From Flavihumibacter soli (GTDB lineage Bacteria > Bacteroidota > Bacteroidia > Sphingobacteriales > Sphingobacteriaceae), in NCBI RefSeq assembly GCF_010692725.1, contig NZ_JAAFZB010000096.1:62001-126000 (forward strand): a DNA stretch of 64,000 bases, in the 5' to 3' direction. Position numbers and translations under genes: made by a program. Under the pieces are notes generated by a model that did not search any database, had not been told where the DNA came from, and saw only the letters and a list, made by a program, of their open reading frames with translations. Position 1 is the first letter of the stretch; every line of letters begins with the position of its first letter. This document shows positions 8,428-13,302 of the stretch, one piece after another.

Positions 8428-9210
8428 TTAGTCGTTTGATTTCAAATTCCTGATAAAACCGTCGATCTTTTCCAGGTAATTATCCTCCCCTAAGATCCGG
8501 ACAAAAGCACTCCCTACGATAGCACCGCGGGTATATTCAGCAGCTTTGCGGAAACTTTCTCTATCAGAGATTCCAAATCCTATCATGGTAGGGTTATTAA
8601 GGTTCATCTCGCGGATCCGTGAAAAGTAGTGTTCCGCCTCATCATTTAAGGCAAGGTTCTTCCCGGTTGTGGAAGAGGAAGAAAGCAAGTAGATAAACCC
8701 CTTACTAAGCTGATCGATTTTGCGGATCCGCTCGTCAGATGTCTGCGGAGTGATGAGAAATATATTAGTTACGCCATTGTTGCTGAAACAATCCTTATAC
8801 ATTCCTTCATATTCATACATGGGAAGGTCGGGAACAATTACGCCCTCCACGCCTGCGTCGGCACAGCTTTTACAAAATTTTTCGACTCCATACTGCAGAA
8901 CGGGGTTAAAGTATCCCATTAAGAGCACAGGAATCGTAAGCCTTTTCCGAAGGTCTTTCAGCTGCTCGAACAGCAGTTCTACGGTCATCCCATTCTCGAG
9001 CGCCTTTTGCGAGCTCTGCTGTATAACAGGCCCGTCAGCTAAAGGGTCCGAATATGGAAAGCCTATCTCCAAAAAATCCGCACCCGCCTTTTCGAGGGCC
9101 TCAGCTATTTTAAGGGTACTATCTATTTCGGGATAACCGGCAGTGAAGTATATGGAGAGTAAGGGTCCGTTTTTACGGGCAAAAAGCTCGTTCAATCTGT
9201 TAACAGGCAT
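8428..9210 (-). CDS. trpA: tryptophan synthase alpha chain
   Basis: A 260-residue TIM barrel that cleaves indole-3-glycerol phosphate to indole and glyceraldehyde-3-phosphate. The catalytic acid-base pair is visible as Glu48 in ADFLEIGFPYSDPLADGP and Asp59 in the same segment. The phosphate-binding segments GFGISDRESF and GAIVGSAFV are also present. It is the last gene of the leftward trpD-F-B-A cluster and acts with TrpB as an alpha2-beta2 complex. A 64-bp spacer full of degenerate repeats separates it from trpB, which is unusual because the two genes are normally tightly coupled. Confidence 0.97.
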   Translation of the reverse strand: MPVNRLNELFARKNGPLLSIYFTAGYPEIDSTLKIAEALEKAGADFLEIGFPYSDPLADGPVIQQSSQKALENGMTVELLFEQLKDLRKRLTIPVLLMGYFNPVLQYGVEKFCKSCADAGVEGVIVPDLPMYEYEGMYKDCFSNNGVTNIFLITPQTSDERIRKIDQLSKGFIYLLSSSSTTGKNLALNDEAEHYFSRIREMNLNNPTMIGFGISDRESFRKAAEYTRGAIVGSAFVRILGEDNYLEKIDGFIRNLKSND

Positions 9211-9274: not shown

Positions 9275-10459
9275 TTATAAATCAAAAAACTTCATATAAG
9301 TGGCCAGATCCTTATCGCCGCGTCCCGACAGACAAACGACTACAGTTTCCTTTCCGGTGAAATTCATTTTTTCTAAATAGGCAAGCGCATGAGCTGATTC
9401 AATTGCAGGGATAATTCCTTCGAGACGAGCACACAGTAAACCCGCCTGCATCGCCTCTTCATCTGTAATGCTGACATACTCCGCCCGCTTCACTTTAAAC
9501 AGGTGGGCATGCTGCGGGCCTATACCGGGATAATCTAAGCCTGCAGAGATAGAATAAGGTTCAACGACCTGACCGTCCGGGGTCTGCATCAGAATTGAGC
9601 GGCTTCCATGCAGTACACCTTCCTTACCAAGCAGGGTTGTCGCAGCTGACTCGCCACTGTCGACTCCCTTTCCGGCGGCTTCAATGGCTATCAGTTTCAC
9701 TTGCTCATCATCCAGGAAATGATAAAACATTCCCATCGCATTACTTCCGCCGCCTACACAGGCTAATACATAATCCGGCGTTTCGGAACCTGTTTTTTCC
9801 TGAAGCTGTTTCCTTGTTTCCTCGGAAATAACGGACTGGAAGCGTGCTACCATGTCAGGATAAGGATGCGGGCCAACGACTGAGCCGATGATATAGTGTG
9901 TATCCAGGGGATTGTTGATCCAATCACGCATAGCCTCGTTGGTAGCGTCCTTCAGCGTCTTACTTCCCGATGTGGCCGGAATAACTGTGGCTCCCATCAT
10001 TTTCATCCGGGCGACGTTAGGCGCCTGCCGTTCAATGTCGACTTCACCCATATACACGACACACTCAATGCCTTTTAAAGCGCATACTGTGGCCGTTGCT
10101 ACCCCATGCTGGCCGGCGCCGGTTTCAGCGATAATGCGCTTTTTACCCAGGCGTTCCGCCAAAAGGATCTGCCCCACTGTATTGTTTATCTTGTGAGCAC
10201 CGGTATGGTTCAGGTCTTCACGCTTCAGGTAGACCGTAGTACCGTATTTTTCAGAAAGCCGCTCAGCAAGAAATAAGGGCGATGGCCTTCCAACATAGTC
10301 TCTTAACAGCTGTTGAAACTCGGCCTGAAAGGCAGGTTCATGCATAATGTTCAGATAGTGCTGCCGCAAGTATTCGATATTCGGATAAAGCATTTCAGGA
10401 ATATAGGCGCCCCCAAAATCTCCGTAATATCCATTTTCATTTACCTGGTAGTTATTCAT
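9275..10459 (-). CDS. trpB: tryptophan synthase beta chain
   Basis: A 394-residue PLP enzyme that condenses indole with serine. The PLP-binding lysine is Lys90 in [16 protein letters not shown]. The glycine-rich phosphate cup is [12 protein letters not shown], and the C-terminal SGRGDKD segment is intact. Length and motifs match the TrpB1 type that pairs with TrpA. It follows trpF by 34 bp on the same strand. Confidence 0.97.
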
Positions 10460-10493: not shown

Positions 10494-11168
10494 TTAACAA
10501 GGATCACTGGTTTTATTGTTTTCTCTTAGAATTTGAATTGCCTGACTAAGCTGATTTATATCCTTAACAGCCGCGGCCGTCTCAAATTTACTGTTTAGGT
10601 CTACGGCATATAACCGTTCGTCATTCATCCGGTTCACCAGCTGAAGTTCATTTAAACCGATTCCGCCGCTCAGGAAATAAGGTTTTCTTAAGGTATACTT
10701 TTGAAGAACCTCCCAGTCGAACACTATACCGGAACCCCCATGACCCGAGGTTTTGGTATCGAAAAGAAAATAATCTACGGCGGCATCATACTTTTCGAGT
10801 ACCTCGAACTGAAAATCACTATCAATTCCGAAAGCCTTGATTAACTCTATATCGTACTGCTGTTCGTTCAGCATCCGGCGAAGGGAGTCACAATACTCAG
10901 GTGATTCCTTTCCATGTAGCTGAACGGCTTTTAAGGCATATCGCTCAACCTTTTCTAAAATGCCCACCTGACTCTCGTTTACAAATACACCTGTTATCAT
11001 AATGTCCGGTGGCAGCGTTCTCAGAAATACCGGGTCGATACGCTCCGCATATCTCGCAGAGGCGGGATAAAAGATCAGCCCCATATAATCTGGCTGCAAT
11101 GTAGCCAGGTTATGAATGTTCTGTTCTTCCCTCATGCCACATACCTTTATTTTCAACGCTCTTGTCAT
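10494..11168 (-). CDS. trpF: phosphoribosylanthranilate isomerase
   Basis: A 224-residue monofunctional TrpF barrel that isomerises N-(5-phosphoribosyl)anthranilate. The catalytic Cys is in KVCGMREEQN near the N-terminus. The catalytic Asp is in FLFDTKTSGHGGSG, which is followed by the phosphate-binding region FLSGGIGLNE and AVDLNSKFE. It is not fused to TrpC. It lies 21 bp downstream of trpD, exactly where trpC would sit in a canonical cluster. Confidence 0.95.
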   Translation of the reverse strand: MTRALKIKVCGMREEQNIHNLATLQPDYMGLIFYPASARYAERIDPVFLRTLPPDIMITGVFVNESQVGILEKVERYALKAVQLHGKESPEYCDSLRRMLNEQQYDIELIKAFGIDSDFQFEVLEKYDAAVDYFLFDTKTSGHGGSGIVFDWEVLQKYTLRKPYFLSGGIGLNELQLVNRMNDERLYAVDLNSKFETAAAVKDINQLSQAIQILRENNKTSDPC

Positions 11169-11189: not shown

Positions 11190-12182
11190 CTAAGCAGTCT
11201 GCAGCAGTTTATTAAAGCTATTCAGGGCACGCTTGCTCAGCAGGGACTCCTCCGCCTCGTAAAAGCAATCTGCAAAGCTACTGTCTGACTTAATTGTTCT
11301 AATGGCTATCGCTGCATTGCAAAGAACAACGTTATTCTGCTCCGTCGTACCTTCACCTTCCAAAACAGCTTTGAAAATAGCCGCCGATTCCGGGACTGTA
11401 CTGCCCCCCGATATTTTTGAAGGATCGATTCGTTCGAATCCCAGCGCTTCCAACGAATTAAGTTCTTCGCCCTGGTTAGTATAAGTTTTAAAGTCACATG
11501 TGAGGGATACTTCGTCATAACCCTCCAGGGCATGCAAAACGGTGTATCGTTTATGCTCCTTTTGATACAGGTAAGCAAATAAACGGGCGAGTTCCAGGCT
11601 ATAAACCCCTACCATTTGATATTTGGGCTTTGAAGGATTGACCATTGGACCCAGCATATTGAAAAACGTTTTAACTCCCAGCTCCTTTCTGATTGGTGCA
11701 ACAGTCTTCATGGCCGGGTGAAATATCGGGGCATGAAGAAAGCAGATGCCGGCATCCTCCACACTTCGGCGCAATACATCCGCATCCCCTGTGAACTTAT
11801 AACCCATGTATTCCATTACATTGGATGACCCGCAGCCAGAGGATACACCATAGTTTCCGTGCTTGGCTACCTTGTAACCTGCACCGGCTACCACAAAGGA
11901 CGCAAGTGTCGAGATGTTGAAGGTATCTTTTCCATCTCCGCCCGTGCCGCAAAGATCGATCAGCTCAAAATCATCGAGCATGGTAGGTTTGCAAAGTTCC
12001 AGCATGGCATCCCGGAACCCTTCAAGTTCTTCAACGGTCACATTACGCATACAATATACTGCCATGAAAGCAGCCATTTGCGAGGCATTGAATCTCCCTC
12101 TTGTCATGTCAGTAAGGATCTCCTTAGCCTCATCCTTGCTGAAGGTCTTCTGTTCAAATAAGTGATTTAGTATTTTTTTCAT
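11190..12182 (-). CDS. trpD: anthranilate phosphoribosyltransferase
   Basis: A 330-residue enzyme that transfers phosphoribosyl from PRPP to anthranilate. The PRPP-binding CGTGGDGKDTFNIST motif, the KHGNYGVSSGCGSSNVMEYMG segment (in two parts) and FFNMLGPMVNP are all present. I start at ATG 12182 (MKKILNHLFEQ); the frame extends seven codons further without family similarity. It is the first structural gene of the leftward operon and is preceded by the leader-peptide attenuator, so the start sits 48 bp downstream of the terminator U-run. Confidence 0.95.
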   Translation of the reverse strand: MKKILNHLFEQKTFSKDEAKEILTDMTRGRFNASQMAAFMAVYCMRNVTVEELEGFRDAMLELCKPTMLDDFELIDLCGTGGDGKDTFNISTLASFVVAGAGYKVAKHGNYGVSSGCGSSNVMEYMGYKFTGDADVLRRSVEDAGICFLHAPIFHPAMKTVAPIRKELGVKTFFNMLGPMVNPSKPKYQMVGVYSLELARLFAYLYQKEHKRYTVLHALEGYDEVSLTCDFKTYTNQGEELNSLEALGFERIDPSKISGGSTVPESAAIFKAVLEGEGTTEQNNVVLCNAAIAIRTIKSDSSFADCFYEAEESLLSKRALNSFNKLLQTA

Positions 12183-12229
12183 CTGCAAACTTCTGATCAG
12201 CAATTCAACCTTAAAATATTTTAGGACAT

Positions 12230-12256
12230 AAAAAAAGGGTTACCAAACGGCAACCC
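12230..12256 (-). terminator. trp attenuator terminator
   Basis: On the minus strand the RNA forms a stem with arms GGGUUGCC and GGUAACCC (one internal mismatch) around a GUUU loop, followed directly by seven U residues. It lies between the leader peptide stop (12292) and the trpD start (12182) with no structural gene upstream on that strand, so its role is most likely premature termination of the trp leader transcript. The 5' arm can instead pair with GGCAAUC at 12298-12304 inside the leader peptide gene. Confidence 0.85.
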
Positions 12257-12291
12257 TAAAAGTCTATTATATTTTTTAAAACATACACACT

Positions 12292-12357
12292 TTACCTGAT
12301 TGCCAAACGATCGATCGTATGCCACCAGTAACCTGCAAGTATGTTATTTATCTTCAT
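12292..12357 (-). CDS. trpL: trp operon leader peptide with tandem Trp codons
   Basis: A 21-codon reading frame, too short for usual gene finding. It begins MKINNILAGYWWHT and ends with TAA. Residues 11 and 12 are consecutive tryptophans (TGG TGG, plus-strand CCACCA at 12322-12327). It lies directly before an intrinsic terminator and trpD. In classical attenuation a ribosome stalls at Trp codons when charged tRNA-Trp is scarce. Here a stall would leave the downstream segment GGCAAUC (codons 18-20) free to pair with GGUUGCC in the terminator's 5' arm (seven pairs, one G-U), which would block termination. The peptide itself need have no function. The codon content and position are direct observations; the mechanism is inferred. 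Confidence 0.82.
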   Translation of the reverse strand: MKINNILAGYWWHTIDRLAIR

Positions 12358-12363
12358 GCATGG

Positions 12364-12395
12364 CAAATATGCCGAATCTTTTTCTGTGCTCCAAA
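12364..12395 (-). promoter_or_regulatory. candidate promoter of the trp leader transcript
   Basis: On the minus strand TTTG (12395-12392) is followed after 20 nt by CATATTTG (12371-12364), one mismatch from the Bacteroidetes -7 consensus TAnnTTTG. Transcription would begin at about 12359, only a few bases before the leader peptide ATG at 12357. No experimental data are available. Confidence 0.45.
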
Positions 12396-12417
12396 CGATT
12401 TTTAACTATTTTTAGAC

Positions 12418-13302
12418 ATGAAGCCTACCCGTAGATCACGCCACCTTCTTTATTTACGTGTCAGATTGGGGCGCGCTGTATTAATTGCGCTTGGGGTTCT
12501 GCTTGCGGCCTTCGGACTTAAAGGTTTCCTCGTTCCCAATCATTTCATTGACGGAGGTATTACAGGCATATCGCTTCTGACAGCCCAGCTGACCGGCGTG
12601 CCGGTTTCCTTATGGCTTATACTGTTCAACAGTCCCTTTATCTATCTCGGAATGAAGCAAATCAGTTACGGATTTGCCTTCAAGACCGCCTTAGCGATAA
12701 TTTCCCTGGCACTGGTCATCTATTTCATTGATTTCCCCGTGATCACAAACGACAAATTACTCATTTCCATATTTGGTGGTTTTTTCCTTGGCTCAGGTAT
12801 CGGGCTTGCTATCAGGGGTGGCGCAGTGATCGATGGAACAGAGATCCTTGCCGTTTACATAAACCGTAAAAGCGTTTTGTCAATGGGCGATATTATCCTG
12901 CTGATCAATGTGTTCATTTTTATCTTCGCAGCCTTTATTCTCGGTATCGAAACTGCTTTGTATTCTATCCTAACTTATCTTTCAGCCTCAAAAACCGTTG
13001 ATTTCATCATCCAGGGAATCGAAGAGTATACAGGTGTTACGATCATTTCGAATAAAAGCGTTGCAGTTAAGGAAATGATCACCGAGCAACTTGGCCGGGG
13101 TGTGACGATCTATAAAGGTGAAAAAGGGTTGGGCGACCAGTTTAAAAGCAAGGACATTGATATCATATTCACAGTTGTCACCCGGCTTGAACTTTCAAAA
13201 CTTAAAAATGAAGTGGAGCGGATTGATCACAAAGCCTTTATGGTCATGAACCCAATTAATGATACCAAGGGGGGATTGATTAAAAAAAGGCCTCTTCACT
13301 AA
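12418..13302 (+). CDS. YitT family membrane protein
   Basis: A 294-residue protein with about five hydrophobic segments in the first 190 residues, followed by a cytosolic DUF2179 domain (about 205-285, VTIYKGEKGLG and FTVVTRLELSKLKNEVE). The segment FLVPNHFIDGGITGISLL is a YitT signature. The transport or regulatory role of these proteins is not established. The ATG is 3 bp after a -7-like box TATTTTTA (12407-12414), so the mRNA may be leaderless. It diverges from the trp leader and its 3' end overlaps the next minus-strand gene by 4 bp. Confidence 0.88.
   Translation: MKPTRRSRHLLYLRVRLGRAVLIALGVLLAAFGLKGFLVPNHFIDGGITGISLLTAQLTGVPVSLWLILFNSPFIYLGMKQISYGFAFKTALAIISLALVIYFIDFPVITNDKLLISIFGGFFLGSGIGLAIRGGAVIDGTEILAVYINRKSVLSMGDIILLINVFIFIFAAFILGIETALYSILTYLSASKTVDFIIQGIEEYTGVTIISNKSVAVKEMITEQLGRGVTIYKGEKGLGDQFKSKDIDIIFTVVTRLELSKLKNEVERIDHKAFMVMNPINDTKGGLIKKRPLH

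Follow-up and report, generated by a model that had tools for sequence, protein, structure and literature searches.

The window, by which we mean the whole 64,000-nt stretch of DNA analysed here, carries a trp leader that is very probably a ribosome-mediated attenuator sensing charged tRNA-Trp and controlling trpDFBA, as judged from the sequence and its relatives. Ribosome-mediated amino-acid attenuators combine cognate codons in a leader frame with mutually exclusive antiterminator and terminator helices, and both were found. The sequence-only reading of this DNA had proposed that ribosome stalling at Trp codons acts here, and the comparison with relatives backs that proposal. The genome containing the window groups with the Sphingobacteriaceae. 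That such a switch exists is not what makes the leader interesting; the interest lies in an annotation gap, a probably near-leaderless start and a series of decaying leaders.

Anatomy of the leader

As read from the sequence, the window's minus strand carries the attenuator with all its parts. Folding of the plus strand of this region was uninformative, since the element belongs to the minus strand. The features are as follows (window coordinates).

12364..12395, minus: predicted Bacteroidota sigma-A promoter (sequence; box counts in relatives; box position in F. psychrophilum)
12359, minus: putative transcription start with a 2-nt 5'UTR (from the position of the -7 box)
12292..12357, minus: leader peptide ORF, MKINNILAGYWWHTIDRLAIR plus stop codon (sequence; corresponding leaders in relatives)
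12322..12327, minus: Trp codons 11 and 12 (sequence; comparison with relatives)
12296..12328, minus: helix 1:2, the protector hairpin (folds; the corresponding family helix covaries)
12298..12304, minus: strand 2 (antiterminator), GGCAAUC (pairing and folding tests)
12249..12255, minus: strand 3, GGUUGCC, used both in the antiterminator and in the terminator, as its 5' arm (pairing tests)
12229..12257, minus: intrinsic terminator, helix 3:4 (12257-12236) plus T tract (12235-12229) (sequence; covariation in relatives)
11190..12182, minus: trpD, anthranilate phosphoribosyltransferase (TIGR01245, 298.5 bits, cut-off 199)
10494..11168, minus: trpF, phosphoribosylanthranilate isomerase (best of the NCBIfam isomerase models at 144.6 bits, below its cut-off of 215)
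9275..10459, minus: trpB, tryptophan synthase beta (TIGR00263, 589.7 bits, cut-off 392)
8428..9210, minus: trpA, tryptophan synthase alpha (TIGR00262, 244.8 bits, cut-off 102)

The leader ORF comprises 21 codons, from the ATG at 12357-12355 to the TAA stop codon at 12294-12292. This frame and its adjacent Trp codons 11 and 12 had been recognized before, with the strand left unstated, and were confirmed in the sequence. Codon 10 is TAC, and at the same place most relatives have a third TGG. One arm of helix 1:2 (12328-12315) spans the Trp codons and the other (12310-12296) spans strand 2, which starts 17 nt past the last Trp codon. The terminator hairpin has 9 pairs and a loop of 4 nt and is followed by seven T; it had been placed at 12230-12256, and its presence stands with the limits listed above. 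Helix 2:3, the duplex of GGCAAUC with GGUUGCC in the terminator's 5' arm, had also been predicted previously and was confirmed at -11.4 kcal/mol (p = 0.04, 100 shuffles). The earlier description of a compact antiterminator had overlooked the helix over the Trp codons. The presence of helix 1:2 and its covariation in relatives indicate the full four-strand logic.

When the whole leader of the window was folded, a z score of -1.71 was obtained, with 12 of 200 shuffles as stable, and in the stalled-ribosome fold 32 of 500 shuffles paired equally well. From the window alone, the exclusion of chance is suggestive to moderate; conservation decides.

The gene order after the terminator is trpD-trpF-trpB-trpA, with TrpD, TrpB and TrpA passing the curated NCBIfam cut-offs and TrpF scoring below. 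The earlier placement of trpD downstream of the terminator was borne out by TIGR01245. The start codon of trpD is most likely the ATG at 12182 (MKKILNHL) rather than the TTG at 12203, to judge from most of the relatives read, which share the former.

Conservation of the leader at trpD loci

For comparison, 110 trpD loci were used: the best 80 of a larger scan, and 30 from the window's own genome and the genomes of relatives (in this second set, trpD was matched in 45 of 60 genomes and 30 loci were taken). Among these 110 are the window's own locus (L083) and, in at least two cases (L006/L099 and L028/L106), two loci from one contig. A Trp leader was present at 106 of them, window included. WWW occurs in 95 leaders, a run of two Trp in 6 and single Trp codons only in 5; these counts are not blind to Trp codons, since leaders were recognized by Trp-codon patterns (for the 11 that lack WWW, the patterns or whole peptides were compiled once the loci had been read). 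Four trpD loci were without a leader. L060 and L110 gave none, L036 begins inside the leader, and at L108 the contig ends 183 nt upstream.

The leader is located directly before trpD at the Sphingobacteriaceae loci. At the 19 Cytophagales/Flavobacteriia loci, with the gene order trpE-G-D-C, it precedes trpE and is found about 2.1-2.8 kb upstream of trpD. A terminator was scored by script in 104 of the 106 leaders; in L040 and L072 the script overlooked it, but it is present by eye. The spacing is also kept. Counted from the last Trp codon, the first paired base of strand 2 is at +13 to +20 nt in 62 of the 66 Sphingobacteriaceae leaders scored from other genera, and at +14 to +19 nt in 19/19 leaders of the window's genus. 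The test of the 2:3 duplex gave p ≤ 0.05 at 50 of 104 loci. Some other clades have other, still complementary letters in strands 2 and 3, as exemplified by GAACAGCG with CGCUGUUC in L067 and L074. Outside the Trp motif the leader peptides diverge widely. The WW motif stressed in the sequence-only reading varies, WWW being the form in 95 of the 106 leaders and one lone Trp codon that of L084.

Covariation and a covariance model

Two alignments were made, A1 with 45 of 66 family leaders (similarity-thinned, Sphingobacteriaceae outside the window's genus) and A2 with 14 of 19 genus leaders. In A1, helices 1:2 and 3:4 covary, as none of 500 shuffles reached any of five measures, and 89.6% of their cells are paired, versus 24.8-50.3% for slid versions. 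For helix 2:3, 83.4% of the cells are paired, versus 21.2-48.9% when slid. Covariation of helix 2:3 was also sought in the family and no excess was found, its score being reached in 272/500 shuffles; the paired cells amount to 82.3% in shuffled alignments (19/500 shuffles). The lack of 2:3 covariation within the family is explained by strand 3, which hardly varies there. Helix 2:3 is conserved, without covariation within the family. The alignment within Sphingobacteriaceae that had been suggested as a check, with conserved Trp codons and covarying stems as the expected outcome, was favourable for the Trp codons and for helices 1:2 and 3:4, but not for covariation of helix 2:3.

A covariance model, R1, was built from A1, with the window's genus left out. 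Having been trained on leaders picked by their Trp codons, R1 is not blind to these codons, and its E-values are rough (short calibration). The window received 65.1 bits and, with E = 1.5e-8, was the sole significant match in its own genome. The next-best match in this genome (E = 0.04) was a mere terminator-like hairpin with the letters GTTGCC and was discarded. R1 found all 18 other genus leaders searched and all 19 Cytophagales/Flavobacteriia trpE leaders searched (E ≤ 0.02), among them L070. In L036, the match to R1 begins at the second base of the locus. At E ≤ 0.001, 181 of the 201 genomes of the family gave a match, the window's own among them. The 20 genomes without a match at this threshold include all three of genus g3 (L110/G021, G068 and G084). 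In L110, trpD is present and the 450 nt upstream contain no ATG-started Trp frame; the leader before trpE in the same genome (L143) contains only one Trp.

Tandem Trp leaders before trpE, both matching R1, were seen in two Cytophagales, a Flammeovirgaceae MAG (L072, 2569-2688 and 2791-2907) and Fulvivirga marina (L078, 2647-2776 and 2798-2915). In Pedobacter alluvionis, a match to Flavo-1 RNA (RF01705) is located upstream of the trp leader region (L019, 3456-3612).

A predicted promoter box close to the leader start codon

The predicted promoter consists of TTTG at 12395-12392, a spacer of 20 nt and CATATTTG at 12371-12364, followed by six bases and the ATG at 12357; compared to the consensus TAnnTTTG, CATATTTG has a mismatch at the first base. 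The motif was spotted first and then counted against shuffles and against trpD starts as a control. Of 106 leaders, 101 had the box [N]AnnTTTG 5-18 nt upstream of their ATG, versus 5.8 in shuffles and 0/91 in the trpD-start control. In F. psychrophilum, the -7 box corresponds to positions -12 to -5 (PMC9723704). With this position, the predicted 5'UTRs of the Trp leaders are 1-14 nt long (median 6), and that of the window has 2 nt. Because the box is so close to the leader ATG in 101/106 leaders, the leader transcript of the window is probably nearly leaderless, in line with the earlier suggestion that it may begin only a few bases before the leader ATG. In F. psychrophilum, 5.5% of the mRNAs are leaderless and the median 5'UTR is 24 nt (PMC9723704), and about 3.7% of the 5'UTRs of B. 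thetaiotaomicron are shorter than 10 nt (PMC7366714).

Ribosome-footprint folding and a proposed mechanism

Leaders were folded with a ribosome footprint, assumed to extend from the first base of the P-site codon over 12 nt on the upstream and 15 nt on the downstream side. In this model, with strand 4 not yet made, the 2:3 pairing of strand 3 in the window was 0.78 with a stalled ribosome and 0.01 with a ribosome at the stop codon, the low value being partly due to masking of strand 2. The stalled state exceeded the stop state by more than 0.3 at 100 of 104 modelled loci. Mean stalled 2:3 pairing was 0.76 for real and 0.39 for shuffled leaders, with p ≤ 0.05 at 39 of 104 loci (40 shuffles each). 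In the modelled complete transcript, 3:4 wins even with a stalled ribosome (0.79 in the window), which means that antitermination must depend on timing. Without a ribosome, modelled 2:3 pairing was 0.74 in the window, versus a mean of 0.17 over 104 loci. According to this model, helix 1:2 may be a weak guard in the window, and because 2:3 persists without a ribosome, termination without translation may be weaker here.

We infer the start site, stalling, termination and Trp response as follows. RNA polymerase would begin just a few bases ahead of the leader ATG, and loading of a ribosome would take place near the 5' end. When Trp-tRNA is scarce, the ribosome would stall at codons 11-12 and open helix 1:2; the freed strand 2 (GGCAAUC) could then pair with strand 3 (GGUUGCC), the terminator would be delayed and trpDFBA would be read. 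When Trp is plentiful, the ribosome would reach the stop codon just past strand 2 and cover strand 2, so that helix 3:4 would terminate transcription.

A second leader before trpEGC and traits of the genus

The contig also contains trpE-trpG-trpC, at a distance of about 1.1 Mb and behind their own Trp leader MMIVLNTCNWWSFFN and their own terminator.

About 1199890-1199937 of contig C96 (genome G000), outside the window: Trp leader of trpEGC, MMIVLNTCNWWSFFN (L121/L002), with the box TAAATTTG 6 nt before the ATG

Before trpE, a Trp-bearing leader frame was found at 20/20 genus loci, 19 of them with ATG; L134 has, by eye, a GTG start only. All 20 trpE loci have a terminator-like pattern, and in 19 of them the start codon of the trpE leader follows a -7 box at a distance of 3-7 nt. 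RNAalifold, applied to an alignment (A4) of 17 of 30 trpE loci (L122, L124 and L140-L150 left out), predicted a terminator as well as a stem around the Trp codons; covariation was seen in 2 of 19 pairs. As there is almost no covariation in A4, we make no strong claim on the structure of the trpE leader.

The trpD leaders of the genus differ from those of the family in the position of the stop codon. Relative to the last Trp codon, it is found at +27, +36 or +39 nt in 19/19 genus leaders, whereas 63 of 67 other Sphingobacteriaceae leaders have it at +6, +9 or +15 nt. Due to the late stop codon, the ORF of the genus leaders reads through strand 2. The geometry described earlier, shorter than in E. 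coli and with the stop just past the antiterminator, thus applies to the window, as a trait of the genus rather than as a general one. WWW is reduced in 7/19 genus leaders versus 3/86 others, the reduced triplets being YWW (window), LCW, WRW, WCW (twice), WWC and IWW. Only one Trp codon is present in L084, which among the genus relatives is closest to the window in TrpD. Judging by these sequences, the reduction of the triplet in the genus could reflect weakening control. WWW, WCW, WRW, YWW and LCW within one genus provide a natural series for relating the number of Trp codons to the response.

We see an even chance that the Trp attenuators of Bacteroidota represent a distinct near-leaderless design, with the first ribosome loading at or near the just-emerged 5' end in a phylum without Shine-Dalgarno control, and that the genus has doubled it into separate trpDFBA and trpEGC leaders, possibly tuned independently by the number of Trp codons. 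This raises the question of how ribosome loading can be sufficiently fast to control a terminator about 130 nt away, with no Shine-Dalgarno sequence and hardly any 5'UTR.

Alternative explanations

An ordinary constitutive terminator or transcript boundary, preceded by Trp codons by chance, would be compatible with the modest pairing statistics of the window itself. It is nonetheless very improbable, since the frame, the Trp codons, helix 1:2, strand 2 and the terminator are in register in relatives, with covariation. Moreover, the neighbour at 12418 is divergent, so that there is no minus-strand gene directly upstream that would need termination. TrpR- and TRAP-type proteins control trp operons in other phyla, and such a DNA- or RNA-binding protein might exert Trp control here, the leader ORF being a by-product. 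We regard this as scarcely credible: conservation is centred on the UGG codons and the complementary strands, and searches of the own genome with the TrpR family PF01371 (controls positive in E. coli and B. subtilis) and the TRAP family PF02081 (control positive in B. subtilis) gave no match.

The attenuator could also be real and decaying in the genus, with fewer Trp codons, a weaker helix 1:2 and a poor response, and with control exerted mainly by the trpEGC leader. The frequent loss of WWW in the genus (7/19 versus 3/86), the single Trp of L084, the modelled 2:3 pairing that is unsuppressed without a ribosome in the window (0.74 versus a mean of 0.17) and the second Trp leader all fit decay. 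Since strand 2, the terminator and the spacing are intact, and since two adjacent Trp codons are also the number used by E. coli trpL, we consider decay unlikely, while giving it some weight. An additional action of the leader peptide in trans has a precedent in the trp leader peptide peTrpL of Sinorhizobium (PMC7298713). For the window such a role seems highly unlikely, because the peptides vary widely outside the Trp motif and the leader codons overlap the RNA helices, which explain the conservation. The reading that we prefer remains an attenuator controlling trpDFBA by ribosome stalling.

Comparison with known systems

The leader resembles E. coli trpL (RF00513, Trp_leader) in its adjacent Trp codons, four alternating strands, intrinsic terminator and logic. 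It differs in that the stop codon follows strand 2, whereas in E. coli trpL it is located between strands 1 and 2, and in its probably near-leaderless start. RF00513 gave no match in the window region 11900-12700 at E ≤ 10, and reached 19.8 bits in the relative L005, versus a cut-off of 41. No T-box was among the seven Rfam matches obtained in the window region up to E = 10.

A comparative study by Vitreschak and others reportedly dates from 2004. The extension of the E. coli logic to Bacteroidota, which the sequence-only reading had offered as its own inference, holds as logic but not as a novelty, since Bacteroid-trp (RF01692) already covered such leaders in 2010; its table entry there is 'y' for RNA, 'y' for cis-regulatory and 'n' for switch (PMC2864571). 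The 2021 transcriptome of F. psychrophilum, a member of the same phylum, mentions 'strong clues' that leader peptides situated upstream attenuate amino-acid operons (PMC9723704); no trp leader is named in the passages concerned, and the word tryptophan is absent from the main text. A literature search over titles and abstract openings, mostly open-access, brought no experimental test of Bacteroidota trp attenuation to our notice.

RF01692 gave no match in the window at 11900-12700 (E ≤ 10) or in the own genome (E ≤ 1), and the leader falls short of its gathering score of 49 bits. In the family, RF01692 exceeded this cut-off in 9 of 201 genomes and reached E ≤ 0.001 in 28, versus 181 of 201 with R1; a broader model would annotate the leaders in this gap. 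The window leader shares with Bacteroid-trp the phylum, the operon class, a short ORF with consecutive Trp codons (two here) before trp genes and a hairpin 1:2 whose 5' arm holds the Trp codons, as seen in folds and by family covariation; the RF01692 model ends in the 5' arm of the terminator. The window differs by WW instead of WWW, by an ORF that continues through strand 2, by its position before trpD instead of trpE and by the terminator arm, which is GGGUUGCC versus GGCUUGUC in the RF01692 consensus. L070 is matched by RF01692 as well as by R1, and L005, above the RF01692 cut-off, is one of the 45 rows of R1. Common descent of the window leader with the RF01692 members has indirect support from the place of L005 in R1 and from the R1 matches to the left-out genus and to the Cytophagales/Flavobacteriia leaders, with convergence on Trp codons and a terminator as the alternative. 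Because the leader appears to work like Bacteroid-trp, and because one model joins both while the RF01692 score is not reached, we file it as a divergent form of this known switch.
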